Assembly (NCBI RefSeq): GCF_042100115.1
Contig: NC_091272.1
Location: 5,208,001 to 5,272,000, forward strand
Direction of reading: 5' to 3'
Length of the DNA: 64,000 nt
Source of the DNA: Alternaria dauci
Lineage: Eukaryota > Ascomycota > Dothideomycetes > Pleosporales > Pleosporaceae
Of this stretch, positions 11,536 through 52,624 are shown in pieces. The position numbers were made by a program, and so were the translations under genes. Below the pieces are notes generated by a model, which was given only the letters and a program-made list of their open reading frames with translations, had not been told where the DNA came from and did no database searches. Each line of letters starts with the position of its first letter. Position 1 is the first letter of the stretch.

Positions 11536-12287
11536 GAAGGCGCGACCAGGCTCTGACAATGTCAGACGGCATCGTGACAATGAAGTGCTTTTGATTCAGC
11601 TGTAAGCGTGGATGCGCCGTCGATAAACAAGCTCCAAGCACCATGTGAATTTGAACGCAACACCCATCAGCGGCCCCGCAATCTCACCAGCAATACAGTA
11701 CACATTGTTCGAAGAGACTAATGCACAGACAGCTTATCGCAGGCGGCTGCACTTGGCAAACGTCGGCACCAAGCAGCCGCACAGGACCTGAAGTCTCGGC
11801 ATAGGCAACCATTGATCCAGGAACATGACGTCACGCGACCTCCCACTTGCCAGATACCTACTTACTCTATGCTCTGGTTCTCATCAGCCACATTCAAAGC
11901 CACAGTCGTTACCCCATCAGCTATTCCTCCATAGTTTGTGTCGTTGTCTCGAAAACTCTTGTTGGCGCGCGCCAATCAATAGTGCTTGTGACTCCACCGT
12001 AAGCTTCGAGGGTTGGCACGCGCTCAGCCCCAGTGCGCAGACATCCTAGACTTGATAAAGAAGGCAACCACAGCTGAATATTTGGCGCTTCAGCTCCTGA
12101 CCGACTGTCCTCCACGCTGCGAACGCTGAGAGACAAGCGAGTGAACGGCTGAGAAGGACCTGTGCTTGGCAGATACCACTTGCATCGCATATATCTCTGT
12201 CCTCGACCCGTTTTCTGGTCAAGTCATCTGTGGTACTGAGAGATCTTGAGTCTTTTGAAACTATTCAAACTTGACCACTTCCCCATC
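11536..12287. other. Intergenic, 752 bp
   Basis: Both flanking genes read rightward, so this holds the Med7 terminator and the DUF2235 promoter. In-frame codons extend upstream of 12288 but contain no ATG, so I keep the start there. No other feature seen. Confidence 0.4.
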
Positions 12288-30959: not shown

Positions 30960-32098
30960 TGTGATGTGCGTGTGTGTGTGGTGTCTTTCGAAGACGGTGT
31001 GGCTTCAAGTGCCAGTTGCAAGTGTGGGCGTAACTCTCTGGGAGCTCGCAATGTGGTGGAGAAGACTAGGCTCTCCGGGTATCGTAAAGGAAGGAAAACA
31101 AGAGGCGAGTTGCGTTTGCCTGGTTGTAGGTGGAGGAGGAATGGCAAGGAGCGGTGGGAAGGGCTACCTATTATATGGACCCGGTCGTGGAAGTATTTCG
31201 AAAGAACACCTTGCGATCTCGAGGATCTTGCTCCGCAACAGGACTAGCGCCGAGCCCGCTCATGGCCCGTTCACTTTGCCCCAGCCCAGCCTCAATTTCA
31301 CCTGCGTTTGATGCAACCTGCTACAGGACACGTGGAATTCACCACCCGTGGTGCTTTCACTGCCCTTGTGCAATATGTGGCTCTGCAATATGCATTAGCC
31401 ATAGGCCACTGTAGCTTCTGGTGCCGTCACTTGGGGAGCAACAACGTCGCTATCTGTTATCGCGTGTTTAGTACAGTTTACCCCTCCATTTAAGCGAACT
31501 TGAGCATCTCAAGACCTTGGTGCTCTATCCATCTTGACTTTGAAATAGCCAACGAATTCTTCAACATTGCAAAACCTCCATCACTGCATTGTGTGACTCC
31601 CGCGTGTCTTGGTCATCTTGTTAGTAATTTTGGACGTGGTCTTGGTTGTCCTCTCCAAAGGTTACAGGTGTCCTTTCGGTAGGCTTCTAAATCGCTAGGC
31701 GGATCTACACGAGACACCGGGCCCACTCAGGAACATCATTCATCTTCATGACTCCTTCGTCTATATGCAACGTCTTCTCAAATATTGTTGCCACCGGTCG
31801 TAAAGCGACAAATGTTTCTGCGCATTTCGCAGCTGCCTGGAATGACAAGGGACTGGTGCACGTATCCCTCTGACCGCCTTTCACCCATCGTCCCATACTT
31901 GCATTTACCAACGCATGCGCCCTTGACACAGACTTGTCTCTGAATTGGAATGAAAACGGAAAGCACCAGAACACCATACACGCGTTGTTCGATGCTTGAT
32001 TCCAGGTGTCTTGAGGTTGGGCCAAGAGAATCTTCGCGATCCTTCCACTTTCGTACTTTGCCGATCTGCCACCTCACCAACACGACCAATGACCTCCG
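30960..32098. other. BiP upstream region, 1.1 kb
   Basis: It holds the BiP promoter and, at the right, the 3' flank of the sulfotransferase-like gene. A CACGTG box (31329-31334) and an ACCAC-CC-GTGGT inverted repeat (31341-31352) lie about 370-390 bp before the BiP ATG. They resemble stress-response sites but do not clearly match a Hac1 site. Confidence 0.4.
31329..31352. promoter_or_regulatory. Candidate regulatory pair upstream of BiP
   Basis: CACGTG at 31329-31334 and the inverted repeat ACCACCCGTGGT at 31341-31352 are close together about 380 bp upstream of the BiP start. A role in ER-stress control is a guess from position. Confidence 0.3.
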
Positions 32099-33042
32099 TC
32101 ACCATGCCTTCGCCAACGTCTGCTTCACAGCGCTCAACGTCGTTGCCCATTGCGCACCAGATCTGCTTCTCCAGGCAATCAAGCCTATGATTCCAGCACC
32201 CAAGCCATAGGGTATCGCTTTCTTGGCAAACCTCACCGCAACGTGCTTGAAGAACATATTCTGTTTCTGCCTCACCCGCTTCACGTGCTCTCCTCTCTTG
32301 TTCTTTACGGGAAATGGCGTGTCTGGTGTCTCTTTCCCTAGGAACTCACATAGCGGTTCCCATCCATCCTCCAAGCGCAGCTCGAGCAAGCGCTCCGCCG
32401 GCACCGCAGCTCGGACTTCTGCATAGTGCTGCCTATATCGATCCTTGGCAACTCGTCGCATATCCTTCACGTTGCGCACGCCGTAGAAACCGAGCATGAT
32501 TTTGCGAATCGTCTTGCCGCCGTTGAGTCCGTATAGTGGCCCCAACACGTTGATGACGAGATCTGCGCGCAATCCCCACGTCGTACTGAAGATGGCCTCT
32601 TCCATGCTGTCATACCACTCGTCGATATCACGCTCCACCAGAATAACCTTCGCCTCAGGATAGGCTTCGATTAACTGCCTCGCGAAGAAGGAGCCCATAT
32701 CGGTGACGGCTTCGTAAGGCCCAAAAAGAACATCCCAGTCTGCGCGTGTGAATGGCTCACCCGTGTAGGTAGGGAGCACAGGAAAGAAGGCGTCACAGGC
32801 CTTGCTGAATAGCTGCCACTCAAGTGGTGAGCTTAGAGCCTGGATGCCATGGTGCACACCTTCATATCCTAGTATCTCAAGAGCTTGAGTTATCGAGGCC
32901 GATCCTATTTCGTAAGTTGGCTTCGATCATCCTTTCAAGGCGACAATGCATGACAACAGGATTTCAAAAGTCTGAGAAACTCACCAGTACGTGTCATTCC
33001 TAGTGAAAGCACTTTCAGCTCGCGTTTGGGACGGTCGGCCAT
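32099..33042 (-). CDS. Sulfotransferase-like P-loop protein with C-terminal membrane anchor
   Basis: Exons 33042-32985 and 32904-32099 join over an 80-nt intron (phase 1) to give 287 residues. The N-terminus 'VLSLGMTRTGSASITQAL' is the phosphosulfate-binding P-loop of the fungal Sulfotransfer_4 family, often mislabelled 'NAD-dependent epimerase'. 'KVILVERDIDEWYDSM' matches the second cofactor-binding segment. A hydrophobic stretch near residues 252-264 ('GLGAGIIGLIAW') may anchor it to a membrane. The family is frequent next to secondary-metabolite genes, but its chemistry in fungi is mostly unproven. It lies 578 bp from the first P450 on the same strand, with an inverted repeat in its promoter that is shared with another cluster promoter. 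I treat it as the left edge of the cluster. Confidence 0.8.
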
Positions 33043-33620
33043 GGCTCAGACAGAATTCGGTCCAACTAACGTAGAAACGCCAATGAGTGTATATGGACGG
33101 TAGTGAGATCAGACTGCATTCTATCACCACCCGTAGATTGGACAGGACAGTTATCACTGCATACCTGCTGTTCACCATGGACCGTGATCCAAACATGTCT
33201 TCGCAACGCATCTGCCAGAACCTTGAACACGTGGTCAAGGGAGTGGCCATTTTACTTGCGCTCGAGTTCTATCGCCGAAGAGCGCCGACAGCCATCAACA
33301 CGATCTACGGGTAGACCCATTTCAGGTCTCAATACGTTCGGCCCGAACTCCAAAGGGCCGAGCAAATTTCCCCTGCAAATGTATCGCAAATGATCAGCCC
33401 ACGCCCCAAACGTGCGACACATTGTGCGCAACCATCGCCTAGTTTTAGCAGGGTGTTCTCGGGCAGAAATATTCCGCGAAGAAAGTCACAACATGTGGGG
33501 TAGCGCTGTCACACACTTCCGCTGGCATCCTCCGTTTGAGAAATGGTAGAGTGAGCTATCATGAGATGGGCTTTTACACGAACACAGCATACGCTGGCCT
33601 TAGATTCTGGCAATCGCTAA
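33043..33620. other. Intergenic 578 bp, promoter of sulfotransferase-like gene
   Basis: It contains the inverted repeat at 33338-33361, about 300 bp before the sulfotransferase-like ATG. Nothing else seen. Confidence 0.4.
33338..33361. promoter_or_regulatory. Inverted repeat TCGGCCC-N10-GGGCCGA
   Basis: Perfect 7-bp arms at 33338-33344 and 33355-33361. The same arms with a 9-bp gap occur at 39844-39866 between two other cluster genes. CGG-rich inverted repeats are typical sites of Zn2Cys6 regulators. Confidence 0.5.
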
Positions 33621-35349
33621 CTAATGCCGTGGCTTTATTGTGACCATGAGCGGCTTCTTCTCCCACACCAAATACGACTTTTGTGTGATCCACCAATTCC
33701 CAGAGTTGCGGCTCAAGGAGATATCAAAATTCCAGAACAGTTTGGCCAAGGCAAGCTTCATCTCGTTCATTGCCATGCTGGAAAGACAACATGTTAGCGA
33801 CATACTAGTGGTAAGAGAGGGAGCGGGTATGCTTACGTTTGCCCAATACAGTCATGTCGACCATAAGAAAAAGGGCGGGAAGCGCCACGGTCATCGTGAG
33901 TGAACTCTCCCTCTTTCGTCTGCAGCCACCTCTCAGGGATAAACTCGAGAGGTCGATGCCAATTCCATGAGACATGGCAGGCTGCCAGGTTGTGTACGCC
34001 TACGGCAGTCTTTGCGATTCGACTTGTCAGTAAATGGTCTCCACGGCGCAAATAGACAAGAAAGGACTTACTCCTCCCGGCACCCATTTACCGTCTATCT
34101 CTTCTCCACCCTCCGGAACCCAGCGCGGCAAAGCTGAAGGTGTAGGAGGTGACATGCGCATCGTCTCCTCGATGCAAGCTTTCAAGTAGGGTAGCTCACC
34201 AGCAGCTACCATGGTGATGTCAGTATCACTCACGAATTTGTCTCGCACCTCGGCGATGACTTTGGCATAAACCTCTGGATCTCGACAAACAAAGAAGGTG
34301 AAAGCAGTCATGGTATACCTAATGTCGATGTGTCAAGTTAGTAGATGCCTCATACGCAGTTCTTGCAAGGACGTCTTCTTACGTAGTCGTGTTGCTGCCC
34401 GCCACAATCAATGCACTCGCCATACCAAACAAGTCCATGTTGCTCAGATTTTCCTTGTCATTACCAAGGATATAGCTCATGAAGTCCCTTTTCTTTCCCT
34501 CTCGCTTTCCACTACGCTCTTCTTCGATCCGTCGCTGCACCTTCTGCAGCGTCAAAGCCTGGTGCCGCTTGCGCGCCTCCATGGCCGCTTTGGGCATGAT
34601 CCATTTCAGAATCCATTCGATGCGGTAGTACACAGCAAACTGGTACCAAACAATACTCTTGACGCGCGACCCAATGACTTCGAGCCAGGGCTCATCCACA
34701 CGATCCAGACAGCCGGCCGGCTGACCAAAGGCTAGATCGCTCATGATATCGAAACTGAGCAGGGCAAACCAGCGGAGGATGTTCTGCTCAGTGACACCAT
34801 ACTGTGGCTTTCGCAACTGTGCGATTAATCGGTCCGTGTGGTCGCGGAAGAAGTCTTCTTGGTCGCGCAACGCACGCTCACTGAAGGCGGGCTGGAGGGC
34901 ACGACGGAGGATAGTATGCCGCTCGGGCGTCTCAGTGACAATGCTGCGGCGCCCATTAACAACCGCAGGAGCGATACCACGGCCGTCTAGACATTTGAGA
35001 AACTCGCGCGGCGGTGGAGTGCCGTCTATCTTCTTCAGGGCTGTGCTGCTTGTATACGACAGCTCATCCGGAGCAATACGTATCACGCTGCTGTTGTAGT
35101 GTAGATGCAAATCACGAATACGCCATGCGAGGTCTCCTTGTAGGTTGACATAGTTCCAGGGTATGCGGGAGATGGCCCAGAGCTTGGGACCTGGATAAGC
35201 GGATAGAGGATGGAAGACGAGGTAGTAGATGGAGCGAATGAGGAAGTACACGATGGACTGTGCTTGATTAGACTTGGGATTTTTGGCTAACACTTTTAGA
35301 AATATCGACCTACACTGATGCAAATGGAGAAAGCTATAACAGACAACAT
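33621..35349 (-). CDS. Cytochrome P450, CYP65-type (cluster P450 A)
   Basis: Exons 35349-35314, 35257-34383, 34318-34072, 34009-33837 and 33777-33621 join in phase to give 495 residues. The N-terminal membrane anchor spans an intron ('MLSVIAFSICIS' + 'SIVYFLIRSIYYLVF') and is followed by the hinge 'PLSAYPGPKLWAISRIPW'. The I-helix has 'VAGSNTTT', the K-helix ExxR is 'ETMR', and the haem loop is 'FSYGRHDCIG' with Cys440 as ligand. It resembles CYP65 enzymes, which often oxidise fungal polyketides and terpenes in the ER membrane. The frame continues upstream to an ATG at 35520, but those residues precede the anchor and look non-coding. It is a paralogue of the P450 at 37839-39488. Confidence 0.9.
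34319..34382 (-). repeat. Probable divergent introner-like element: P450 A intron 2
   Basis: This 64-nt intron has GAACTGCGTATGAG before a TACTAACTT branch site. It aligns with the GAACTGCATGTGAG...TACTGACTT block of PhoD intron 8. It is more diverged than the PhoD and BiP copies. Confidence 0.5.
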
Positions 35350-35874
35350 ATTCGCGTTGAGCTTGGAAATCTCGTTTCTACTCTTGCTCTCCTTAGTTCG
35401 TCTTTCGAGTCTTGAAGCCGTGGGCCCATGATCGCGCGCCGAGGGAGTGGTGTTGTACCTGTTTTTCTCCCATGAAGCACAATCGACCAATTGAAATAAA
35501 CAGTTATCCACGTGGTTCAATTCATTAACTCTGAGCCTCTGGCATCGAACTCAGCTGAATATGCAGTCTTCGGTCTTTACCATCCTGCAGCTCAGGCTCT
35601 CGGTGGTACATACTGGTACCCTGAACCCGCATTCGGCCCGCGTCAGTCGGCTAGCCCAGTCGCCGTTTACTGATACAATGACTCGCTCCCCGTTGTTCAT
35701 ACTGCGGCCGTATTGATAAAAACGGAAAAGTCAACAGCTGCACGTACATTGCGTTCTGAACTATTTGTGTGGAGAATATGGCGCAATACCGGACTTATAC
35801 TCGAGATAGTACCGAACAATTGATTGAGACCACCGGAAAAGCAAACCAATCACGGCATTTATGATACCAACAAC
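35350..35874. other. Intergenic 525 bp, P450 A promoter
   Basis: It contains a single TCGGCCC half-site at 35633-35639, 284 bp before the P450 A start. A nearby TCGGCTAGCCC is a degenerate partner. No gene seen. Confidence 0.4.
35633..35639. promoter_or_regulatory. TCGGCCC half-site upstream of P450 A
   Basis: It has the flank TTCGGCCC shared with both inverted repeats in the cluster. Alone a 7-mer is expected several times by chance in this window, so support comes from its position. Confidence 0.3.
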
Positions 35875-37488
35875 TCACTCCACGGCGACCCTCAATCGGC
35901 ACATGACTGCAGCATCCCTCGCGACTGGACTGCCAGGGCTACACACAACAGTGAAGTTATGCCAATCGCGCTTCACGTCAATATCCAGACCCTCGATAAC
36001 ATCATACCTCTGCACCATCCTTACCAGCACATATCCAGCCTCTGTAAGTGCAAACTGCTGGCCAATACAGATGCGCGGTCCGCCATTGAAAGGAACATAC
36101 TGCCACGTCATTCCCGGTCTCTTCTTCTCCCACCGCTCAGGCACAAATTCGTCGGCGTCTTCGCCCCACAAGTCTTTCCGTCGGTGCAGCACATGCGTGC
36201 TGAAGTTGACTTCGGTGCCCTTGGGTACGAATACAGGCATGCTTCCATCGGGTCCACCACCGACGGGAAGCGTCGTGTCTCGTGCAGCGCAGCGGGAATT
36301 GAATGGAACGACCGAATGTAACCGTAGTGTTTCGTTCAGAACGTGTTGTAGGTAGGTGCAGCCTTTGAGCTTCTCGAATGTGATCTTCTGCCCAGGATTC
36401 GTCGAGTAAGGGCCGAACTCTGCAAGAACAGTGTCACGTAGCTTTTTGTACACTCGTAGATTTCTTACTAGACAGTAGAAGACCCAAGCTGTAAGTGACG
36501 CCGTTGTGTCTCTGCCTGCGGCCAGCAAGCCTAGTACTTGCTCGCGTACTTCGGCGCGGTCGGAACAACGCGTACGCAGTGTTTCGAGAAAGTCGTAGCG
36601 AAGTTGTGATGAGCCCAACTTTCGTGCTTGATCAGCGGCATCGATGGCACTGTCTACGAAAGCGTGAAGAGTGTTGATACACTTTTGGAGTTCCTTGTTG
36701 CCGTATAGCCAGTATAGGCTTCGTAGTCGCATTCTTGTCCCTAGGATGGCGAGCATGCGCTCGAAGGCATGATCGAAACTATCCGCATCGTGTTCTTCAT
36801 TGCCGCTTTTTTGCTGTTGTCTGGCAAGCGCCTTCTTGAGAGAATGTGTGCTCTGCCCGAGGAATAATTCAGTTGCAGAATCCATAGTCAGACGCGGCAA
36901 CAGTACAGCCAAGCTCACAGGTGCCGACCATGCCCTGTCATCAGCATCAGTCGTCAACCCCTCGTCTTTGGTCTCTATAATCTGCAACATAGTTTGCACA
37001 TGTTCCTCGAGTAACTCGAGCCGGGAAACATTCTCTCGGCTGAAGATCGGCCGCATCGTTTCCCTTGCACGATGCCATGCTTTGCCATCCACAGCAAAGA
37101 TACTGCGCCCAAGTGCCGTCTTCAAGTTTGTCCTCCTCGCAGTACCCATGATGAAGTCGTCGAATTGCGTTGCGAGGAGTGCTTGTACGTTGCGCGGCTC
37201 GGCTGTGATCAGATTCGATGTACCCAGTAGCGATAAACCCCAGGTATAGCGGCCCATGGTTTCAAAGCGGCCAGTTACAAAATCAGGGGTTCTTTGCTCT
37301 TTGTCGGCTTTCAGGCTCCGGCGTACGGTGTCGATACCTAGAGGCCATCGGGTTGGCTCGAATGGCACGGGGCCACATCCGAGACGGCGGCTCTTGAGGA
37401 GGGTTTGCAAGGGCTTTATTAGAAAATTGTTGGCAATGTGAATGATAAGCAATAGACTCGCTGCGATGATAAGAAGGTGTGTTTGCAT
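35875..37488 (-). CDS. CYP52-like cytochrome P450 (cluster P450 B, intronless)
   Basis: A single exon of 537 residues starts at the only upstream ATG (37488) that puts the membrane anchor 'LLIIAASLLLIIHIANNFL' at the N-terminus. The I-helix 'LLAAGRDTTASLTAW', K-helix 'NETLRLHSVVPFNSR' and haem loop 'FNGGPRICIGQQFAL' (Cys474) follow the CYP52 pattern. That family hydroxylates the terminal carbon of n-alkanes and fatty acids. Inside this cluster it may oxidise the end methyl of the polyketide chain; that is inference. Unlike its P450 neighbours it has no introns, so it entered the cluster from a different lineage of P450 genes. All three P450s read leftward. Confidence 0.9.
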   Translation of the reverse strand: MQTHLLIIAASLLLIIHIANNFLIKPLQTLLKSRRLGCGPVPFEPTRWPLGIDTVRRSLKADKEQRTPDFVTGRFETMGRYTWGLSLLGTSNLITAEPRNVQALLATQFDDFIMGTARRTNLKTALGRSIFAVDGKAWHRARETMRPIFSRENVSRLELLEEHVQTMLQIIETKDEGLTTDADDRAWSAPVSLAVLLPRLTMDSATELFLGQSTHSLKKALARQQQKSGNEEHDADSFDHAFERMLAILGTRMRLRSLYWLYGNKELQKCINTLHAFVDSAIDAADQARKLGSSQLRYDFLETLRTRCSDRAEVREQVLGLLAAGRDTTASLTAWVFYCLVRNLRVYKKLRDTVLAEFGPYSTNPGQKITFEKLKGCTYLQHVLNETLRLHSVVPFNSRCAARDTTLPVGGGPDGSMPVFVPKGTEVNFSTHVLHRRKDLWGEDADEFVPERWEKKRPGMTWQYVPFNGGPRICIGQQFALTEAGYVLVRMVQRYDVIEGLDIDVKRDWHNFTVVCSPGSPVARDAAVMCRLRVAVE

Positions 37489-37838
37489 CTTGAATGATAG
37501 CGATTCGACGCGTCTTGAGTTCGTACCGCTTCCTGGACGATACACCACTGGCAATTTAAATATGCTAACGAGCCACTCATGCTAGGGTAGCATCTTGGGC
37601 CCACGCTTAGCGCACTAGTCATGGGATCGGTGCCCGCTCAAAGTCTTGGTTTGTATGCTGACTGCCGCCTGCTTGACCTTCCCAGTGAGAGGGGCTAGGA
37701 GTGTTCGTCAAAACCACCACTGTGACCAAAGGCGGATGCATGTTGTCTTTGCGATCTTTTATTGTATCTACTCGTACGGCTACTGGCCATACCTCACATA
37801 TATCGTAAGCACTTCTACAGCTCCTTGCTCTGCTACCA
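37489..37838. other. Intergenic 350 bp, P450 B promoter
   Basis: A minus-strand TATTTAAA near 37553-37562 lies about 70 bp before the P450 B start and is a candidate TATA box. I see no TCGGCCC site here. Confidence 0.4.
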
Positions 37839-39488
37839 CTATTCGACCACATCAGGCACAGGTGTCAGCTTGACCTGCAAAGGCAACTTCTCCCATACCA
37901 AGTAGGTGCCTTGCTGGTTCCACCAGTCATTGTCGGGGTCATCAAGCTCCCAGTCAAAATACCGTACCAACTTCGCCATTGTTAGAGACATCTCGGCATA
38001 GGCCATAGATCGTCCAATACAAGCCCTCTGACCGTACGAGAACGGCTGGACTGCAGAGCGATCGTCATCCTTGAACTCCGAATCGGGCTCATCGAGCCAG
38101 CGCTCGGGATGAAACTCGCGTGCCTTCTTGAAGTTACGTTCGGAATGGCCGGCCGCTAGCTGGTTGACACCAACAGCATACCCGCCTGGGACCCATTTGC
38201 CTTCAATCATCTCGCCCTTGCCAGGAACAAATCGTGGCAGTGAACCCGGTGTTGGTGGATAGAGACGCATACCCTCGTTGAGACAGGCGCGGAGGTACTT
38301 GCTGCTAGTCACTGCCTGAAGGGTCATATCCGCGCGGCTTTTGAATAGACCTCGTATTTCTTGCTTGAGCTTCTCTAGTTTGTCTGGGTTGCGCAAGAGA
38401 AGATATGTCAAGCCGGACATGCCGCCTGCAGACGTACCGCTACCCGCGACGATGAAGTTGGAAGAAAGCATTACCAGCTCAAGGTGGTTGAGCTTCTCAT
38501 TGTTTTCGAGAATGTAGGACATGAAGTCCTTGCCGGGGTTTTTGGCTTCAACTCGCGCCTTCAACTTGGCCTCGGTCATAGCGATGTGTTTCTTTCTGGA
38601 CTCGGTAACGTATTTTGGTGTCATCCAGTTGAGCAGACCCATGAATCCGTATTGTACAGCAAGCTGAAACCAGACGATGGCTTTGGCACGAGCGAGGATG
38701 GCTTGAATCCATGGTTGGTCAGGATTGTTGACGCAGCCTGACGGCTCGCCGAAAGCCAGATCGGATACGATGTCGAATGCGACGAGGTTGTACCACGTAG
38801 TCATATCCAAGGGTCCGTCTTTGCATCGTTGCTTGAGCTTCTGGACAAGATTGTCCGAGTGGTCTTGGAAATAACTCTCTTGTTCACGTCTAGCGTTATG
38901 CAGTCAGCATGGTCGGATAAAGCCTGGAAGTCGAGATATAGCAGGCAAACTCACAGTGCTCTCTGACTAAATGCCGGATCTATGGCCCTCCTCAGCCTCA
39001 GATGTCTGTCTTGGTGCTCAGTCATCAGGCTTCGTTGGCCGCCGATACTCGCAGGCGCAATGCCTCTGCCGTCAAGGGCCTTGACGAATTCAGGGTTTCG
39101 CTGTCCGTATATCTTTTTCCAAGCACCAGACGTCGTATACGAGAGTTCATCTGGGGCGATACGCACAACGGGACCATACTTGTCGTGGAGCTCGCGGATC
39201 TTCCAGCTGATGCGACCCTTCATATTTGCGCGATTCCATGGTAGGCGAGAGATGGCCCAGAGCTTTGGACCTGGGTAGCCAGCTAAAGGGCTGAGGTAAA
39301 GATTGTAAATGACTTTGAGCAAGACATAAAATACGGGCTGCGCACTGTTGTGAGCTTTCGAGGAAGCGAAGGCAGAACTTGTGCGAACTTACGAGAACAA
39401 TGACACCAGTGATGATGTTTCGAGTTATCAACGATAGTAATTGATCGAGCTGATGCCACAAACTATCCGGCGCGGAAGATGGTGCCAT
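37839..39488 (-). CDS. Cytochrome P450, CYP65-type (cluster P450 C)
   Basis: Exons 39488-39393, 39337-38955 and 38889-37839 join in phase to give 509 residues. The anchor ('LLSLITRNIITGVIVL' + 'PVFYVLLKVIYNLYL') leads to 'SPLAGYPGPKLWAISRLPW', nearly the same hinge as P450 A. The I-helix reads 'FIVAGSGTSAG', ExxR is 'EGMR' and the haem loop 'FSYGQRACIG' has Cys450. Many blocks match P450 A ('DRHLRLRRAIDPAFSQRAL', 'FDIVSDLAFGEPSGC'), so the two are paralogues, but they keep different intron sets (two here, four there). It is divergent from the FAD oxidase, 844 bp away. It is predicted to act in the ER membrane on the PKS product. Confidence 0.9.
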
Positions 39489-40332
39489 GGTACCTAGGTA
39501 CTGTGAAATTGCCAGAATGCAGCGGAATCAACATTCAGAGCTCCAAGTTCCAGAGAAGAGACCCCCTCAGTCTTCTTCAGCCCAGCGTTCGGGCGACAGC
39601 CCAGAATGGCGGGAATATCTACCGCGGCGTCTCTGGATAGTACGCGCCTTTGTTGAAGCGCTGCATCTCCCTCCTTGTCCTCTGACCCCAGGCTTCGTAC
39701 TCACCGAGTGATGGTGCCGAGCAAAACTATCCAATGATACTTCCACATCGTTGCACGCTCAGCAAGAAAGCGTGTATATGAAGAATACTCAAGGTATTCC
39801 GAAAGAAGATGCATAGGCCGATCGAGGTGACCCGGACTTTTATTCGGCCCTAGCAGGTCGGGCCGATCCTCTCTCCGAGATAACATGCATAACGGCAGCA
39901 TGTCGTGCGTGTACACTTGTGGGTACCGCTGTCCACGTGGGTCTACCCACGGTAGGCTAATAACTACGTGAAGCTTGGCCACGTGCTGTGGGTATATGGC
40001 GAAGCTTGACCAGAGGTTGAGCGGAAAAATGATTCAGGGTTCCGCGCGACAGTGCAGAGCAATGTGGAGCCTGCCTACACCTACATGGGTCTAGAAGTGT
40101 GTCGGTTCTTCTTGCGTAGCATTCAGCACGCGATCTTGCTCGGCCGTAGGTACCGATACGCTGAAGGTCTTCATCGGCTGCGACGATCCGTTACTACTAC
40201 GCCTGTAGCTGAGCACTTTGTTAGATGCAAGACCTCCTGTTTCGTTTGATCATTCCTTGTATTCCAGGCCGTCTCTCCACCATCATCAATCGATCTAGTT
40301 AGCATTTCAAATTGTCAGTTCAAGTATAGAAC
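39489..40332. other. Divergent promoter region, 844 bp
   Basis: It serves P450 C (leftward) and the FAD oxidase (rightward). It carries the inverted repeat at 39844-39866, roughly central. No gene seen. Confidence 0.4.
39844..39866. promoter_or_regulatory. Inverted repeat TCGGCCC-N9-GGGCCGA
   Basis: Perfect 7-bp arms at 39844-39850 and 39860-39866 lie in the shared promoter of P450 C and the FAD oxidase. It matches the element at 33338-33361 apart from one base of spacing. Confidence 0.5.
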
Positions 40333-41973
40333 ATGGATATCCAACAAGGCGGCGATGACCTCATCTCGCTGGCAGCCATAATTCGCACCGAGCTCCAGCA
40401 AAAGCTGTCGAGCAAGGCACGGATCCATCTGCTGTTCGACGAGGACAGAACCGAGTTCGACAAAGCCAATTTGCGCTTCACTCAGTATGAGCGCCCGACA
40501 TACCTCGCTATTGTCGATCCAGTCTGTGAAGATGATGTGATCGAGACTGTCAAGTATGCGCGAGGAAAAGGTATTCCGTTCACACCTCGTGGCGGCCATC
40601 ATTCAGTCACGACCACAATGGGACGTTTCCAGAATGGCATATGCATCAACATGCGTCCACTCAACCAGATGCGGTGGGATGCCGAGAAACGTCATGTCAC
40701 CATTGGTGGTGGAGCGATAACTGACAAGTTCGTGCGCTTTGTGCATGACTTGGGCATGGAAGTCAGTATGTATGACATACCCCTTTGTTACAGTGGTGGT
40801 GTTGACGAGACAAAGATGTGGGATCATGTCCGACCACCGGAGTCATTGGTGTAGCATTTGGAGCGGGCTTAGGACGTTTACAAGGAAAATATGGCTTCCT
40901 CAACGATAACATGGTTTCCTGCAAGCTCGTGCTCGCCGACGGAAGTACGGTGATTGCATCCAAAGACTCGCATCCGGATCTATTCTGGGGTCTTAGGGGA
41001 GCAGGCCATAACTTTGGTATCGCACTTGAAGCCACGTTCCAGGTCTATCCGCAAGCCCATGGGGGTATACACCATACTTGGGACTTGGAGTACACTCTAG
41101 ATCAGTGCGATGAGGTATTTGGGACGTTGAATAGCGTTTATGAAAGTATGCCTGCCGAACTGGCAATCTTCATCTTATGGCTGCGCCAGAGTAGTGGTCG
41201 CAAGGTAGGTCCTTCCGTAACGAGAGTAGTGACGCCGCTCATAAGATTCAGCACATCATTCTCGTCAACTTGGTCTGGTCCGGTCCGGCTGCAGGCGCAG
41301 ATCCATATGTGCAGCGGTTCGAATCTCTGATGCCAGTCTTGAACAGCGGGCGAAAATCGGTACCATGGCCAGAACTACCTTTCACGACGTACAAAGAGAT
41401 TAACAAGCTCTTCTGCAACCCCGAGATTTGGCTTCGTGGCCCCTACAAGATGATGGGGGCCGCCTGCGTCGAAAAGTTTGATCTGAAGACGACACGTGAG
41501 TTTTTCGAGAGCGTCAAATCCATGAGTGAGGAATGGGAAGACCGTGGCTGGTTCAGCGCCATGTTTGAATGTCTACCCGATCAGCGTGTTCGCGAAGTCT
41601 CTGATGACGCAACGGCATTTCCGTGGCGTGCAGGGTCAAACCATTTCTTGTGAGTCAACCCAATCCACCCCTCTCAAAAAACAGCTTCTAATATAAGAAC
41701 TGCAGGATGCTGAATGCTACACCAAAACGGATGGAGGATCGAAAAGTCTTTGAGGATCACCTCAACTACTGGAAGAGACGTTTCATTGAAACGTCTGGTT
41801 ATGGCCGGTTGCAGCAATACGTGAGCTATGGCAACGGCACGTCAACTATGAAGGATCCACCAGAGGCGCTATATGGTTATGAGCCATGGAGATTAGAGAA
41901 GCTGCGGAACCTCAAGCTGAAGTACGATCCCGATAACGTGTTTCGGTGGTACCAGCCACTTCTTGAACCCTGA
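40333..41973 (+). CDS. Berberine-bridge-type FAD-linked oxidase (four exons)
   Basis: Exons 40333-40765, 40816-41204, 41252-41649 and 41706-41973 give 495 residues. For intron 2 the acceptor at 41251 (47 nt) looks better than an in-frame one at 41245. The PP-loop FAD domain has 'FTPRGGHHS', where His89 or His90 is the 8-alpha attachment site. 'NVGSCPTTGVIG' supplies Cys149, the second covalent site, so bicovalent FAD is likely. The C-terminus 'NVFRWYQPL' fits the BBE motif. These enzymes use O2 to oxidise alcohols or C-H bonds and can form rings. Most fungal members have a signal peptide; this one ('MDIQQGGDDLISL') does not, so it may be cytosolic. It lies upstream of the PKS on the same strand. 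Confidence 0.9.
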
Positions 41974-43010
41974 GGTTTTCTTTGCCGGGTCTTGAAGTAT
42001 TTCTCAGTACAGACATAGGCAATTAGACGAGATCATCTCTGGAAGTACCATTAGAAGCAAGATTTTCTTCCCTTGCGAACGCGTTTCTCGGCTCTACGAT
42101 GGCTCCATTCGTGTACTACGAGGCTTATCGAGAAGTCTAGCAGCTTAGCAGATTTGGTGACAACTGCTTGCCAAGGAGCGAAAGATGGCTTGCGTACATC
42201 TCAGCATGAAGAAAGGCCTGTAGATCTTGTCCCAACTTCAAAAACGGTCGAGGTCTTGGTCGCAGAAACGAGCGGACACTTTTAGCGTGTCACGACTCAT
42301 GTCTGGCGTGGAATCGATGCCCAGAGGCGTGCGATCTGGGGAAATTTCTAGAGCCGACGCTGCTAACTGTCTGAGTATACGGGCCTTCAGTGGGTCCAGA
42401 TAATGCTGGTCAAAGTAGTGGGGACGAAAGTGAACCCCACAGCGTTGATAACCCTCGTTTATCCCGGTCGTTTTCGCGTCCTGAAAAGAATTACTCCGAG
42501 AGTGGCGACCCGTCAATACCACGAGTCAGGACTACTGTCTGTAGCCAAGTTGTGCTCGTATAGTGCAGAATGCTTGGAGAGCGGAAGGAACCGTAATCGC
42601 TTGGGATCGGTGTTTCGAGAACCCACTCCATATACTCGTTGCACGTGTGCACCCGGGGAATCGCCAGGCAGCGTGCTCAAACAACAAAGTGGGATTGGAT
42701 GCTTTGCTCAAAATGATTCACCGACTTCATATTGGTCCTGCCGAATCGAAGACAAGAGTTTTCCTGAATATGGCAGCTGCTCGGTGTTGACGCGACATCT
42801 GTACGATTAGTGAATAGATAGCAGACGTTACCTCTGAAGACGATATGTACTTATAGTTTCCCTCCAAGTTTCGTCGAACAATTTTCCCATTGCTTATCAT
42901 ACCCCATCATCTCTCATTCGAGTGTGTCTTGTCATTCAGCTATCGCTGATACTGACTTGCCCAACTGCCTGCCATTCCTCATTAGTATTCTTCATCACAA
43001 AGCTGCCACC
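41974..43010. other. Intergenic 1.04 kb, PKS promoter
   Basis: It lies between the FAD oxidase and the PKS, both rightward. I found no TCGGCCC/GGGCCGA site here, and no convincing frame. The last 100 bases are pyrimidine-rich and are probably the leader. Confidence 0.4.
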
Positions 43011-46000
43011 ATGGACAAGCCAGTCGCCATTATTGGTATCGCGTTTCGTGGACCTGGTGACGCTCGAGACCCGGAAGCCTTCTACCGCATGCTCGTCGAG
43101 GGTCGTAACGCACGTACCGAGATCCCCAAGGACCGTTACAATGTCGACGCTTTCTACCATCCTGATTCAGAACGCCTAGGCAGTATTCAACAAAGGTAGG
43201 CTCGATGCCACTCTTCCTGTGATTTGCCCAAGATGCTGATCGCCTGTTACAACAGACATGCGCATTTCTTGCAACAAGACTTCAAGGTGTTTGATGCTCC
43301 ATTCTTCAGCATCACACCGAAGGAAGCAAAGGCCATGGACCCAACGCATCGCATCCTTTTGGAAGCTACATACGAGGGCTTTGAGAATGCTGGCTTGAGC
43401 CTTGAGAAGGTCTCGGGCACACAGACATCCTGCTACATTGGCACCTTCACAGCAGACTTTCCCAACTTGCAAGCACGTGATAACGAAGGTCCTTCTATAT
43501 ACCACGCGACTGGCATGTCAGCATCGCTGGCTTCCAACAGATTATCGTGGTTCTACAATCTTCGGGGCCCTTCCCTAACAGTCGACACAGCTTGCTCATC
43601 CAGTTTGACTGCTTTCCACTTGGCATGTCAAAGCATCCGCACAGGAGAGGCTGAGATGAGCGTGGTTGGAGGTGCCAATCTCATGTTCGGACCGGACATG
43701 TCCATTTTGTTGGGAGCTGCGAAGATCCTGTCCCCAGAAGGCAAGAGCAAGATGTGGGATGCGAATGCGAATGGTTTTGCTCGTGGAGAAGGATTTGGCG
43801 TCACGATCTTGAAGGTATGTACCCGGCGCGATCGTTACTTTTCAGGGTGAGACATTTGGCTGACAGGTGACGATACTTAGCCTCTAGACGCAGCGTTGCG
43901 CGACGGTGACAACATTCGAGCGGTCGTGCTGGCCACAGCTGCCAATGAAGATGGCCACACGCCTGGTATCTCGCTGCCTAACAGTGAGGCGCAACAAGAA
44001 TTAATCCGGAGGGCATACAAGATGGCTGGTGTAGATCCAGCAGAGACGGCGTATGTGGAAGCACATGGAACCGGTACACAGGCTGGTGACCCACTGGAAG
44101 CCCGAGCCATTCTGAAAACCATTGGGTCGGTCGAGGGCCGCAAGTCGGATCTCTACGTCGGGTCTGTTAAGACGAACATTGGACATCTCGAGGGTGCAGC
44201 CGGTGTAGCTGGCATCATCAAGGCTGCACTGACGGTTGAGCGAGGCATGATACCGCCAAATCTTTGGTCAGTACATCAGTGAAACCTCCTATCCGCCCCG
44301 CACTGACGACCTCCAGGTTCGAGAAGCTCAATCCTGAGATCGATTTGCCAGAAAATGTCAAGATTGCCTCCAAATTGACACCGTGGCCGCATAGCGGACC
44401 TCGCCGCGCAAGCATCAACAGCTTTGGTTTTGGTGGTGCAAACGCACATGCTATCCTCGAGGATGCAGCATCGTTCCTGTCACGTCATGGCCTGAGCGGT
44501 CGGCATACGACGGCACCGCTTCTTCCCAGTCTGAGCAGTGTGCGCGTCAGTCATCCCAGTGACAGCCCCAGCAGCTCTGCAAGTACAGTCACCGAAGAGG
44601 CAACAAGTGGCGAATCCAGCGACAACATCAGTGACGTTTCGAGCGAGGTGCTACGTGACGTCTATCCCATACCGAAGTTGTTTGTGTTATCTTCCAACGA
44701 TCAAGAGGGGGTCAAGCGCAGTGCCGAGCGCCTACAAGAGTATCTCGCTTCCAAGACCTCCACCGCACCTTCGTTCCTCAACGATCTGGCATACACGCTG
44801 AGTGCCAAGAGGACTACGTTGCCATGGAAGTCTTATGCCGTGTCTTCAAGTGTCAGCGGCCTTCGAGAGAAGATCTCAAGCCTCCCTCCGGTGGTCCGCT
44901 CCTCTACTTCTGCGATACCACGAATCGCCTTCGTCTTCACTGGCCAGGGCGCACAATGGCACGCAATGGGAAGAGGCCTTTCCGTGTACAAGACTTTCGC
45001 TGAGAGTATGCAGAGATCGGAAGTCATGCTCAAGTCGTTCGGTTGCCCATGGAGCCTTGCTGAAGAGCTGAGTCGCAGCGAGGCTGAGTGCAAGCTGCGC
45101 GAGACTGACTACAGCCAGCCGGCCTGTACAGCTATCCAGGTTGCGCTTGTAAATCTCTTGAGCAGCTTTGACGTGCGACCTGTTGCTGTCCTCGGACATT
45201 CCAGTGGCGAGATTGCGGCTGCTTACGCTGCCGGCTTTATCGATCAAGAGGCAGCAATCAAGATCGCTTGGCTCAGAGGTCAAGTCAGCAAGACTGTCTC
45301 CAAGAATGGTGGCATGTTGGCCGTTTCTGCCAGCGCCGATAGCATACAGAGTCATCTCGACGGCCTGAAGAGCGGCAAGGCAGTCGTAGGATGCTTCAAC
45401 TCCACCAAGGCTTGCACTGTCACTGGTGACGCCTTCGCCATTGATGAGCTACAGACAATGTTGAAAGACGCACAGGTAGCATGCACCCGATTGCCCATGG
45501 ATGTTGCATACCATTCCTTCCACATGGATGCAGCCCGCGAGAAGTACGAAGAGGCTCTCGGAGGTATCGCGCATGGCTCAACGTCGACCATTCCTATGTT
45601 CTCCTCGGTGACGGGCACTCTGGTTGACCCGGCACAAATGAGGCCTTCTTACTGGGTAGACAACTTGGTTTCTCCCGTCAACTTTGTCGCAGCCACCCGT
45701 TCCCTTCTGAGTCACCCGCAGGAGAGCAAATCGCGCAAAGCTTTTGCCAATCTGTTCGTTGAGCTCGGCCCTCACTCAGCCCTGCGCAGCTACCTCTTGG
45801 ACATCTTCAGCAGCGAGAACCGTGCTGCGGATACGACGTACACCACTCTTCTCCGCCGCAATTTCGATGGCGCTGCGACGGCGCTGGAAGCCATGGGTTA
45901 TCTTTGGGCGCATGGATGCAAGGTCGATCTGAGCAAAGTCAACGATGTGTCTTCTGATAGCATCAACATGCTGACCGATCTCCCTCCATACGCTTGGAAC

Positions 46001-49000
46001 CATAAGCCGTATTGGGATGAATCCCACTTGAGCCGTCAGCACCGCCTTCGCAAGTCACCGCGTACAGACCTCGTAGGCTATCGCCTACTTGGAACGCCAG
46101 AGCACACATGGCGCAACTTCCTACGGTGCAACGAGAATCCATGGATTCGCGAGCATAAGGTCCAGGGCGATATCCTCTACCCAGGTGCCGGTATGCTCGT
46201 CATGGCGATCGAGGCGGCGCACCAGCTAGCCCAAGAGACGAATGCCGACGAGATCTATGGTTTCGAGTTGCGCGATGTCAGCATCGATACCGCTCTTCGT
46301 GTACCTGACACTGAGAAGGGCATCGAAGTCATGACGCAGCTGCACAACCGTCGCACTGGAACACGAGCAGCGCCGTCCTCCACGCTTTACGAGTTCACTG
46401 TTTCTTCTTGGAGTGAAGAGATGAGCTCTTGGAGTATGCATGCTCGTGGTCTAGTCTCGGTCACCTTCAAGACCTTCTCTCCGTCCATGGAGCGCGAGGT
46501 GGCACTTGGGAACGAGCGCTACATGTCTTCCCTTGCCGAGGCTAGAAGAGTCTGCCAGAAGCCGGCGCGAAGCTTCCTATATGACACAGTCGAGACCATT
46601 GGCATGCAATACGGGCCGACCTTCCGCAATATGACGGAGCTGTATGCCAGGCCCAACAGCAGTTATGGTGTCATCAAGGTGCCTGACACCAAGGCGATCA
46701 TGCCCAAGGGCTTTGAGTTCCCCCACGTAGTCCATCCGGCCACCCTCGACTCTGTCCTTCACCTCATCTTCCCTAGTATCTCCGGCGAAGATCAAGCACT
46801 GAATGAGGCGGTCGTCCCCCGATCTTTTGATCGCATTTTTGTCTCAGCCAATATACCAAAGAATGCTGGCGCAGAGCTACGCGGTTGCTCTTCTGCAAAG
46901 AAGCTGAGCTACACCACATGGAATTCGAACATCACCATGTCAGATTCGACGATGACTGAGCCTGTTGTCATCATGGAAGGCGTTGTACTAGCATCTGTTG
47001 GCGCGACAGAAGATGCATCGAAGCAACTGGAAACGCGCGCATCGTGCTTTGCGCAGAATTGGCATGTAGATGCTGATCTCTTGACTCCATCCCAGATCAA
47101 GGAGATCATCTACAAGCGTACACTGAAGAGTAAGGATGACGACTCAGTACTTGATCTGCTCGAGTTTGTGTGCTTGGTGTACATCTACCGCATCCTCGAC
47201 TGGTTCCAGACCGACGAAGGGAAGGCACATGTGCCGCAGGATGGCTTCTGGAAGTCATACGTAGAGTGGATGCATGACACTGTCAAGCAGTTCCCTGCGC
47301 TGCCCGCAGATGTCGAGACTGAGATGGAGAAAGCCCGGCAACGCATCGTCAAATCCGAGAGCGGCGACATCACGGTGCATATGGTGGATCGCATCGGGCA
47401 AAATCTTTCTCGCATCTTCACACGCGAAGTCGAAGCTCTGCAATGCATGACTGAGGGCGATCTTCTTTACTCCTTCTACCGCGGCGCGTTCGGAACCAGT
47501 TTCAACACCAACGTCGCCGAGTACGTCGGTCTGATCGCTGACAAGCAACCCGGGTTGCGCATTCTGGAAATCGGGGCCGGAACGGGTGGTACTACATACC
47601 ATGTTTTGGAACGCTTGCGCAATCCAGATGGAACCTCCAAGGCAGCCCAGTATTACTTTACTGACATCTCCCCTGGCTTCCTTGCCAAGGCAGCTGATCG
47701 GTTCAATCAGGATGCGTCCATTATGCAGTTTGGCACGCTCAACATCGAGAACGCGCCTACAGAGCAAGGCTTCAGCCCTGAATCGTTCGACCTCATCGTA
47801 TGCGCGAACGTGCTGCACGCAACGAAGAGCATTCAAGAAACATTGACGCACTGCAAGCTGCTGCTGAAGCCAGGTGGCCGTCTCGTTTTGTCCGAGGTGA
47901 CCATCAAGCGCATCTTCTCTGGGTTCATTATGGGCCCTCTGCCCGGCTGGTGGCTGGGAGAAGCGGACGGTAGGATGGGAGGCCCGCTGTTGGATGCTGA
48001 TGAGTGGAGCGTTGCATTAAAGAAGGCGGGATTCTCGGGTGTCGACGTCGATATCCGCGGTGATCGTGAAACCTCGAAAGAGCCCGTCTCGCTGCTCATC
48101 TCAACCAAGCCCAAGACGACCGCGCCTAGCCTGCCTTCCTGCCTTGTCATCACCACTGGTACTGAAGCATCGAACAAACTAGCTGATACCATACAGAGGG
48201 TATTCGCCTCTGCTGGTCATGACATCAGCATCGCTCAGTGGAGTAGTGTCACCAAGACGCAGGTAGAGGGGAAGTATTGCCTCTGTCTTGCGGAATGGGA
48301 GGATGCTATCCTCGCGAACCTCACCGATGATGATTGGTACAGGTTGCGCGAAGTCGTTCTTTCATCCGAAGGCGCCCTGTGGATCACTGGTGGTGGTGCT
48401 CTCGACACCCCTTTCCCCATGAAGAGCCTTATGGTTGGACTCGGAAGAGCCATTCGTAACGAAGACGCCGGTGTCCGGCTTGCCTGTCTCGATCTGGATC
48501 CACCAACGACTATCGATTTCGAGGAGGCGTCTCGGACTACACTCAAGGTTGCATATGCGCATGTCCACGGTGATGGCACAGAGGGTGAGTTCGCCGCGCG
48601 TGGAGACAAGGTCTATGTACCGCGCGTTGAGCGAACCCTGCAAGTCGATGGATCGTTGCGCAAGTATGAAGCCAAGGGTGACCCCGAGATGGTTCCATTC
48701 AAGAGCTGCGGACGTCCCCTCAAGCTGACTATCAAGACACCCGGTCTGCTTGATACCTTCCAGTGGGAAGAGGATGAGACGTACCACACGCCATTGCCCG
48801 AGGATTGGATCGAGATTGAGGTAAAGGCCGTAGGTCTCAACTTCAAGGATGTTCTCGTTGCGCTCGGTAACCTGGCCGAAAACAAGCTGGGTGTTGATGC
48901 CTCGGGTGTCGTCACTCGTGTTGGATCTGCTGTCACGGACATCAAAGTCGGCGACAGAGTAATGACGGCATCTTGTGACACCTTTGCCACATATGTCCGC

Positions 49001-50842
49001 TTCCCAGCCAAGGGCGCCATAGGTGTTTCAACAGGTATGAGTTTCGAGGAAGCCGCTTCGATGCCCCTCATTTTCCTCACGGCTTACTATGCTCTGGTAA
49101 CCGCGGGCGGTATTGTCGCTGGCGAGAAGGTCCTGATTCATGCCGCTGCTGGTGGTGTCGGACAAGCTGCCATCATGATTGCGCAAGCCAAAGGGGCTGA
49201 GATCTTCGCTACGGTCGGCGCAGACACTAAGAAGCAACTTCTCATTGAGCAGTATGGCATTCCCGAAGACCACATCTTCAGCAGCCGCGATACCAGCTTC
49301 GTGAAAGGCGTACTGCGTGCTACTGACGGTCAAGGTGTGGATTTGGTCCTGAATTCGTTGGCTGGCGAGGCTCTGCGTCTATCATGGACTGACTGCTTAG
49401 CCAAATTCGGTCGGTTCTTGGAGATTGGAAAGGCAGATCTGTTCGCCAACACCGGTCTCGACATGAAGCCCTTGCTGGACAACAAGAGCTATATTGGCGT
49501 CAACCTTCTTGATTTCGAGAACAATCCAACGCCTCGTGCCGTAGCGCTATGGCATGACACCGCGAAGATGATCCATGACGGGGCGATCAAACCCATCGCG
49601 CCGCTTCAGATCTTCACCATGGCTGAAGTGGAGAAGGCTTTCCGCCATATGCAGGCCGGAAAGCACATGGGTAAGGTGGTCGTCCGCGTTGACAATGCCG
49701 ACGTCGTTCGTGCCGTACCCCGAATCCCTCGCGTTAGCATCCACCCCGACGCAACATACGTGATTGCTGGACTGGGTGGAATTACACGTGAGATCGCGCG
49801 CTGGCTGGCAGAAAAGGGCGCACGGTACTTAGTTTTCCTCTCGCGCTCTGCAGCCAGCGGCACAGACAACCAGGCTTTTGCCTTGCAACTGCGAAATACG
49901 TACGACGTTACGCCGCTAGCCTATGACTGCGACGTTGGAAACAAGGCCGCTCTACAAGCAGTCTTGGATGACCTGAAGGCCAAGGGCTTGCCACCCATCA
50001 AGGGATGTGCGACTGGTGCCATGGTCCTGCAAGACTGCCTGTTCGACAAGATGACCGCCGACCACGTACGCACAACGGTCGGTCCCAAGGTTCACGGGAC
50101 CTGGAACCTACATGAGCTACTACCGCGCGACATGGACTTCTTCGTGATGTTGTCTTCGCTCGCTGGTGTTATGGGCCATCGCGGACAGGGTAACTACGGG
50201 TGCGGTAACAACTTCCAGGACGAGTTTGCTTCATTCCGGCGCGGTCAGGGCCTGCCCGCGATGACTATCGATATTGGCTATCTTCTGTCGGTAGGATTTG
50301 TGGCTGAGCATGACGAGTATGTCGATCACGTCAAGGCCATGGGATTGAAGGTGATGCATATCTCGGACCTGCACGGTCTGGTAGCGACCGCCATCGAAGG
50401 CCCCTCGCAGCACCCCGGGCAAGTCATGTGCGGCCTGCCCTTCAACGAGCACGACGACGCGTGGTACTGGATGGCCGACGCGCGATTTGCTGCCCTACGC
50501 AACGTCGCGGCCGGGTCCGCTGCCAATGCGGGGCAGGCTATTTCGCTGCAGGAAGAGTTGACGCGTTGCGGCACCGTGAATGAAGAGGCTGTGCAGCTCA
50601 TCACAGCAGCCATCGTGCAACGACTTGCGAGCTTGATGATGATACCCGAGGCCGATATCGATGCTGGCAGGCCGTTGAGCGCCTATGGTGTTGACAGTCT
50701 GGTCGCGGTTGAGGTGAGGAACTGGGTTGCCCGCGAAATGGCAGTAGAGGTTTCCGTGTTTGATATTATGCAGAACGTGCCGATGACACAACTGGCACAA
50801 AATTTGGCGGAAAAGAGTAAATTGCTCCTTGGCCAGGCTTGA
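43011..50842 (+). CDS. Highly reducing iterative type I polyketide synthase
   Basis: Exons 43011-43195, 43256-43814, 43881-44266 and 44317-50842 give 2551 residues. Order with approximate residues: KS 4-425 (Cys175 in DTACSSS, His310, His350); AT 580-885 (Ser672 in GHSSGE); DH 950-1240 (His990, Asp1188); C-methyltransferase ~1400-1620 with an intact SAM loop '[10 protein letters not shown]' at 1461; a linker with likely structural KR; ER 1840-2150 ('[12 protein letters not shown]'); KR 2185-2370 (Ser2324, Tyr2337); ACP 2470-2545 (Ser2504 in GVDSL). All catalytic residues I can check are present. The KR nucleotide loop is 'AGLGGITR' where most have GGLGGLGR. No thioesterase or reductive release domain follows. 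The product should be a largely saturated, methyl-branched chain in the cytosol. Confidence 0.96.
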
Positions 50843-51223: not shown

Positions 51224-52624
51224 ATGTCGGGCAACGTTGTGGATCCTGGAGCAAGGGATAAATATCTCCTACAAGGTATGTGATAGTCAATTCAAAGTGA
51301 TCGTTCAAATTGCTGATATACAGTAGTAACCGCAGGACCATCTTACAATACTTCAGAGCACGAGCAGGTGTCAGTCAACGGCCCAGACCCCACACATGTC
51401 GAAAGCGACCTTGTAGAAGCATGGATTCGCGTCCGGATCAAGGACTACCATGGCCTGCCCCGTGGTTCCCCAGCTTCCTCGTCTTACTTCGAGCACCCAC
51501 AACATACCTCTGATAGGTACTCGATTGCCTACTCCTTTGTACCCAAGGAAGATATGTCTGGTTCCGATCTGGTAATGGGCTTCGATTACGGTCACTCTAT
51601 CAAACACCAGCTTCCACCGGGTTTCAAGTACGCAATGAAGATTGCTACAAGTATGCTTGATCCTGGGCTTTATTCCGACGCATACTCCGATGAGCCATAT
51701 CTATACGGGCCCGCACTTTCAAGTTTCTTTGCTTTCAAAATCGGAGATCGAACAAGCGAAGTGCCAGCAAAAGACCAACTCGCAAATCTTAGTCAAGAAA
51801 CAGACAATGTCATAGAGGAAGGTGCATCAGGAAGCGGCAAAGAAGTTCGAAAAGCTTTGTCTATGCCCTCAAAGTGGAAGAAGAGGCGGAAGCATTTTCT
51901 CGACGAACGAGCCCTCTCAGCCTTCACATTCGAAAAGGGCCGCATGTATCATGCTGACTTCTTCAATCCGCATCTTGATTTTGCGAATTTCTCGTTGAGG
52001 TTGCCGGGCTTCTCCATCAGTGTGGCCAAGTATGTGGATGAGAAAACGCATCATTTGAGGTATGTGCTCAAGAACCGGAGGACTTCAGATGTGCTTCTCG
52101 TGGTCTTTTTCAAATTGTTGTTTGGTAAAGAGCTGGAAGATACGCTGGAGAAGGAGAAGAGGAGAGAAAGTGCGCCATCAGCTGTGGCTGTGGATGATCA
52201 ACCGAAACAGGAGGGTACAGGCCATGCCGAATTAACCAAGGTTTGTGCTGCTGAGGAGGCTGAACGAAGAGCTCCAGAACCTCAACCATCGATAGTGCAA
52301 CGGGATGAGTCCTCTCCAAGGCAACATGCAGGCACGAACGGTGCACCAGCAGGAAGAGCGACCGGGGTTGACGACAAGCCACAAGAAGACCAAAGTTACA
52401 TGAACCAAGCAACAGCCGCTGTGTCGAATCTTGCAAATTCCGTAGTGGCAGTGTACGCAGCGCTGGGCTTCGGCAACTCGTCATCCTCATCGTCCGACTC
52501 AGAGGCCTCAAGCAGGAGGAGTAGCTCATCGCAGCCACCGAACAGGTCAATGGCAACTGAGATCGATAATATGGATGACAAGATAATAGAGCAGTATTTG
52601 AAGAGCCGACAGGGAAGCGTATGA
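51224..52624 (+). CDS. DUF1769 family protein
   Basis: Exons 51224-51275 and 51324-52624 (48-nt intron, phase 1) give 450 residues. The central part has 'LPPGFKYAMKIATSMLDPGL', 'DEPYLYGPALSSFFAFKIGD' and 'FEKGRMYHADFFNPHLDFANFSLRL' (the last spread over residues ~215-240), the pattern of DUF1769 proteins, an uncharacterised fungal family. The C-terminal third is low complexity, Ser/Glu/Gln-rich, and has no known domain. It follows the PKS by 381 bp on the same strand but is a widely conserved gene. I therefore place the cluster boundary before it, while noting the nearby GGGCCGA site. Confidence 0.8.

Follow-up and report, generated by a model that had tools for sequence, protein, structure and literature searches.

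Six adjacent genes at positions 32099-50842 of the window, that is, of the whole 64,000-nucleotide stretch of Alternaria dauci DNA analyzed here, very probably represent the alternapyrone cluster alt1-alt5 (MIBiG BGC0000012) of an Alternaria-type fungus together with one further gene, which encodes a sulfotransferase-like protein of Pfam family PF17784. The identification follows from the shared gene set and from the sequence identity of the polyketide synthase (PKS) and of one of the three cytochrome P450s. It corrects the preliminary description of this DNA, made from the letters alone, which had matched the genes to no known pathway: the gene set and both sequences are those of alt1-alt5, a widespread polyketide cluster of the Pleosporaceae with a known product family. 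The same description held that the novelty of the locus would go if MIBiG contained a cluster of identical gene content and known product, and this is the case for five genes, described in the literature as alt1-alt5, and not for the sixth, which falls outside the published five. The sulfotransferase-like gene is the sole part of the locus that could still be new, and the positions of its relatives in other genomes suggest that it probably belongs to the alternapyrone pathway. It is kept by the cluster in three fungal classes and is not among the five genes that have been reconstituted, and the compound that the native cluster finally makes may thus have escaped notice.

The inventory of six genes in the preliminary description was borne out, coordinates included, by complete gene models, Pfam, and profile scans of the genome (34.9 Mb, ten contigs). 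The genes are as follows.

33042-32985 and 32904-32099, minus strand: sulfotransferase-like (PF17784) gene, two exons, 287 amino acids, at the left edge of the cluster
35349-33621, minus strand: P450a, five exons, 495 amino acids, PF00067, called alt1 by position and family
37488-35875, minus strand: P450b, one exon, 537 amino acids, PF00067, CYP52-like, alt2
39488-39393, 39337-38955, and 38889-37839, minus strand: P450c, three exons, 509 amino acids, called alt3 by position and family
40333-41973, plus strand: BBE-type oxidase linked to flavin adenine dinucleotide (FAD), four exons, 497 amino acids, PF01565 and PF08031, called alt4 by position and family
43011-50842, plus strand: highly reducing PKS, KS-AT-DH-MT-ER-KR-ACP, four exons, 2551 amino acids, alt5

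Among the best 120 of 7,797 PKS relatives, full-length identity to the window PKS is 94% for an Alternaria alternata protein, 88-89% for Pyrenophora proteins, 84% for a Parastagonospora nodorum protein, and 82% for an Exserohilum protein that bears the name alt5. The nearest listed relative of the sulfotransferase-like protein, among the best 120 of 824 (E <= 0.001), is likewise from Alternaria (A. gaisen, 92%). The best 120 of 5,226 relatives of P450b include proteins entered as "Cytochrome P450 monooxygenase alt2" from Colletotrichum orbiculare (63%), Apiospora saccharicola (58%), and Apiospora arundinis (57%), and a PKS relative and an alt2 relative have contigs of equal size in at least 21 cases. 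The PKS is of the alt5 type with all of the domains KS-AT-DH-MT-ER-KR-ACP, and its neighbors are three P450 genes and a gene for an FAD oxidase. This matches the published picture, for which the sources cited here were available as excerpts: the neighbors of alt5 in Alternaria solani are three P450s and an oxidase (Fujii et al. 2005, via PMC4936691 and PMC4205913), the synthase PKSN is 82% identical between P. nodorum and A. solani (PMC4205913), and the A. dauci and A. solani versions are 91% identical, "the whole cluster" being conserved (PMC9114375). The alternapyrone family has been reported from 100% of the genomes of section Alternaria (n = 86) and of sections Infectoriae/Pseudoalternaria (n = 15), from 50% of other Alternaria genomes (n = 22), and from 73.4% of other Pleosporaceae (n = 64) (PMC12278603).

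Some features of these data weigh against the identification. The PKS identities are to relatives in A. alternata and Exserohilum and not to A. solani Alt5 itself, and the assignments of P450a as Alt1, of the oxidase as Alt4, and of P450c as, probably, Alt3 come from position and family. That the cluster instead makes a new, so far unassigned polyketide is nevertheless very improbable, since the PKS and the gene set are the same as those of the alt cluster. The native end metabolite in Alternaria was called unknown in papers from 2014 and 2016 (PMC4205913 and PMC4936691), which would leave room for such a product, but later work links alternapyrones G and H to the alt' cluster of Arthrinium arundinis, whose five alt' genes were expressed in Aspergillus nidulans (PMC11669671).

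All six gene models are uninterrupted, with GT-AG introns whose splice sites were predicted by reading the sequence, and all lie inside 32099-50842. The synthase is complete, as had been claimed for it: the AT, DH, MT, ER, KR, and ACP domains lie on the long PKS exon according to Pfam, the KS was found by the genome scan (PF00109, E = 4.8e-58), and patterns for the KS, AT, DH, MT, ER, and ACP motifs and for the KR motif NYxxxN are all matched. The KR nucleotide-loop pattern gave no match in the PKS, yet the Pfam KR domain has an E value of 1.1e-58. In the oxidase, the Cys motif GSCPTTG is present and the flavin-His loop pattern gave no match, the corresponding stretch reading RGGHHS. The heme-Cys motif was found in all three P450s, two of which, P450a and P450c, are paralogous with 48.6% identity. 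P450b is of another kind, and its relatives, named CYP52A13-like or alt2, agree with the CYP52-like P450 that had been proposed. A broken P450c was considered and rejected, as a 55-nucleotide intron (GTAAGT...GCGCAG) restores the frame, while other splice models are out of frame or have a weak donor. With this intron, P450c (PF00067, E = 4.8e-57 in the genome scan) keeps a single frame and a plain N-terminal membrane helix and is therefore taken to be intact.

Names among the P450b relatives call for some care. Seven of them (P0277, P0288, P0289, P0322, P0326, P0327, and P0338) are named "alanine transaminase alt2" and have P450 as their Pfam family, apparently because the symbol alt2 is common to two unrelated genes. 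Two Alt2-like proteins, P0267 (Bipolaris oryzae COCMIDRAFT_32802, 930 amino acids) and P0354 (Phyllosticta citribraziliensis, 916 amino acids), have roughly double length and are perhaps two adjacent P450 genes fused in the gene model.

The case for the sixth gene as a member of the cluster is its conserved neighborhood, seen in both contig matches and locus tags. At least 24 of its 120 listed relatives lie on a contig equal in size to one that carries a relative of alt2 or a PKS of the alt5 type, in Dothideomycetes (Clathrospora), Sordariomycetes (Sarocladium), and one Leotiomycete (Rhexocercosporidium), where equal contig size served as a proxy for the same contig and overlooks genomes whose longest contigs differ, such as that of P. 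nodorum. The comparison covered 120 sulfotransferase-like entries, 75 of the 120 PKS entries (the alt5-like P0121-P0195, four of which lack a contig, with the 45 less similar ones omitted), and 120 alt2 entries, the first being the window's own, and a smaller set (72, 69, and 45, respectively) also gave 24. Nine of the 24 are matched with a PKS entry and 17 with an alt2 entry, two of them with both; 23 stand among the first 83 listed and one among the last 37, and organism names are concordant in all 17 matched pairs that bear names. The remaining 96 of the 120 entries are no evidence of separation, because each list consists of the best 120 and many contigs are short. Neighboring locus tags for the sixth gene and the PKS or alt2 were found in seven species.

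Colletotrichum jinshuiense: EsH8_II_000208 (alt2), 000210 (PKS), 000211 (sulfotransferase-like)
Sarocladium strictum: NLU13_2134 (PKS), 2135 (sulfotransferase-like)
Apiospora saccharicola: PG996_009790 (sulfotransferase-like), 009794 (PKS)
Apiospora rasikravindrae: PG993_002936 (sulfotransferase-like), 002938 (alt2)
Apiospora phragmitis: PG994_000099 (alt2), 000101 (sulfotransferase-like)
Bipolaris oryzae: COCMIDRAFT_32802 (alt2), 32804 (sulfotransferase-like)
Pyricularia sp. CBS 133598: PspLS_00222 (sulfotransferase-like), 00228 (alt2)

In Clathrospora elynae, the locus numbers are far apart, yet the genes share a single 180,598-base contig. The sulfotransferase-like gene stays by alt genes in Pleosporales, Colletotrichum, Sarocladium, Apiospora, Pyricularia, Gnomoniopsis, and Rhexocercosporidium despite scrambled general gene order, and of the three PF17784 copies in the genome, only the sixth gene is near a KS (11 kb versus 439 kb and 2.2 Mb). 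Both observations argue against the rather unlikely alternative that the gene is a long-standing neighbor that plays no part in the pathway, such as a gene for general detoxification located between BiP and the cluster. This alternative would account for the position of the gene at the cluster edge, adjoining BiP, and for the published five-gene clusters and their successful heterologous expression without a sulfotransferase, as far as the excerpts go. It would also fit the many taxa with alt5-like PKS entries (Cercospora, Pseudocercospora, Phyllosticta, Neofusicoccum, Penicillium, and Talaromyces) for which no entry was found among the best 120 of 824 sulfotransferase-like relatives. The identities of the sulfotransferase-like proteins and the PKSs are correlated (Pearson 0.79 and Spearman 0.66 for 66 pairs from 12 chosen taxa), and we give this little weight because common descent alone could produce it, also for a gene lacking a pathway role.

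The protein encoded by the sixth gene matches PF17784 (Sulfotransfer_4) with 223.2 bits against a cutoff of 22.8. Its nearest solved sequences are SgdX2 (8y9p), Cpz8 (9kf1 and 9kf2), and schistosome sulfotransferases (4mua, 5tiz, and others), with E values of 1.5e-23 to 5.3e-15, and the predicted structure of the orthologue P0001 (mean predicted local distance difference test score 88.1, predicted template modeling score 0.78) has the same proteins as its best fold matches (Foldseek E values of 7.6e-14 to 1.9e-12). The fold, the R-T-G-S/T loop, and the R...S pair are alike in the PF17784 protein and in these sulfotransferases, with 23-29% identity in the fold alignments. Among 26 chosen homologues, the RTGS loop has R18 in 24 (K in 2) and S21 in 24, and R111 and S119 of the R...S pair are present in all 26; we take the loop and the pair to be the residues that bind 3'-phosphoadenosine 5'-phosphosulfate (PAPS). 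The proteins differ at the C-terminus, where residues 223-286 of the model form a helical stretch outside the sequence matches to the solved sulfotransferases. The long helix of this stretch (223-265) is hydrophobic around residue 245 (mean of 1.23 over 19 residues) and might, as a weak suggestion, hold the protein close to the P450s in the membrane. The PF17784 relatives often carry the name "NAD dependent epimerase" (P0019, P0032, P0034, and P0077, among others), at odds with Sulfotransfer_4 as the Pfam family given for them, and others are named "P-loop containing nucleoside triphosphate hydrolase" or "efflux pump antibiotic resistance." The epimerase that appears in the excerpt of PMC9495618 is an unrelated one.

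CYP52 enzymes oxidize chain ends, and for this reason the CYP52-like Alt2 fits the oxidation of a methyl group to an acid. In the Arthrinium arundinis pathway, alt5' alone gives alternapyrone, alt2' converts the C-26 methyl to an alcohol and an acid, alt3' brings about hydroxylation, epoxidation, and oxidation, and no new product was obtained with alt1' or alt4' on heterologous expression (review PMC11669671 on Hu et al. 2024). Chemically, alternapyrone combines a 4-hydroxy-3,5-dimethyl-2-pyrone ring with a triene chain that bears methyl branches (PMC11990127). The reduced, methyl-branched chain oxidized at several positions that had been predicted from the gene set thus stands in broad outline, matching the published pathway. 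By orthology and position, the Arthrinium (Apiospora) roles would carry over to the window, with Alt2 (P450b) taking the methyl to the alcohol and acid and Alt3 (probably P450c) performing the hydroxylation, epoxidation, and oxidation of the chain.

Whether the PF17784 protein would sulfate an alternapyrone is a more tentative matter than its membership in the pathway, and we hold it to be possible, somewhat short of an even chance, from the motifs and the model. It would then transfer sulfate from PAPS to an alternapyrone hydroxyl, with the pyrone 4-OH as the preferred site. Cpz8 presumably sulfates polyketide-derived pyrones in caprazamycin biosynthesis, and by analogy pyrone sulfation might be a trait common to sulfotransferases of the SgdX2/Cpz8 type. 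The fuller proposal, which we regard as plausible at best, is that an overlooked sixth enzyme adds sulfate to the 4-hydroxy-2-pyrone or to a hydroxyl introduced by Alt2 or Alt3, so that the native end product is sulfated or is formed via a sulfate leaving group. If true, this would explain why Alt1 and Alt4 seem idle in the five-gene host, and these two enzymes, without a visible product so far, might gain a role if the sixth gene acts in the pathway.

Certain published observations count against sulfation. The five alt' genes without a sulfotransferase gave precursors or products of alternapyrones G and H in A. nidulans (PMC11669671), which means that these compounds do not depend on the sixth gene, and no sulfated alternapyrone was found in the excerpts of the alternapyrone literature, nor was any sulfotransferase tied to the alt cluster in the excerpts on alternapyrone and sulfotransferases; a putative A. 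alternata sulfotransferase is mentioned without location (PMC12613980). A further explanation, on balance unlikely, keeps the PF17784 protein in the pathway with no sulfate left in the product, through transient activation of a hydroxyl, protection of the producer, or loss of sulfation. The solved relative SgdX2 is titled a "bacterial activating sulfotransferase," the schistosome enzyme SmSULT transfers sulfate onto a hydroxymethyl group where the sulfate is transient (PMC10359000), and the lack of a visible product of Alt1 and Alt4 in the five-gene host (PMC11669671) leaves room for a missing step, all of which would suit this explanation. The kept nucleotide-binding motifs speak against loss of PAPS binding.

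A separate observation concerns sulfur metabolism. The alternapyrone cluster is down-regulated in A. alternata mutants of the methionine/cysteine pathway and on citrus leaves (PMC7851696). Sulfur supply feeds S-adenosylmethionine, and would feed PAPS too if the sixth gene is a sulfotransferase.

Core genes bound the cluster as had been described, with BiP on the left and Gpi16 and LUC7 on the right, and Pfam matches on the flanking frames agree with this. The genes immediately outside the cluster are the following.

28663-31004, minus strand: HSP70/BiP gene, left boundary, PF00012 on 28663-29199 and 29322-30140, with 31004 as the end of the open frame
51317-52624, plus strand: Duc1-domain gene, right boundary, PF08588, 217.9 bits

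The right side carries, according to Pfam, Duc1, Gpi16, LUC7, and Rap1. No transcription factor of the usual cluster type and no drug-efflux transporter was found among the flanking frames scanned, which were the longer ones (20 plus 3; 6 of the 20 without a family match). Farther out, a 525-amino-acid frame at 12240-13817 on the plus strand has a Tle1-like phospholipase catalytic domain (PF09994, 204.9 bits), and a frame at 26030-26980 on the plus strand has a weak match to an Asp f 4-like allergen (PF25312, 22 bits, under the cutoff of 27).

Compared with known systems, the window has the same PKS domains and the same side-by-side arrangement of three P450s and one FAD oxidase as the A. solani alt1-alt5 cluster, and differs from the published A. 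solani set, as excerpted, in the PF17784 gene that adjoins the last P450. The alt region of Bipolaris cookei contains homologues of alt5, alt4, alt3, and alt2 and an "NAD-dependent epimerase" gene, and, unlike in the five-gene set, an alt1 homologue is not named in the excerpt (PMC5722872). The four alt genes showed low in vitro expression there, the "epimerase" being listed in the same region (PMC5722872), and the shared name leads us to infer that this gene may be the PF17784 gene of the window. The alt' cluster of Arthrinium arundinis, which gives alternapyrones G and H, has the same five gene types as the window, and the Apiospora relatives named alt2 are 57-58% identical to P450b. The sulfotransferase-like gene goes unmentioned in the excerpted account of that cluster (PMC11669671), whereas Apiospora saccharicola, Apiospora rasikravindrae, and Apiospora phragmitis carry it near the PKS or alt2.

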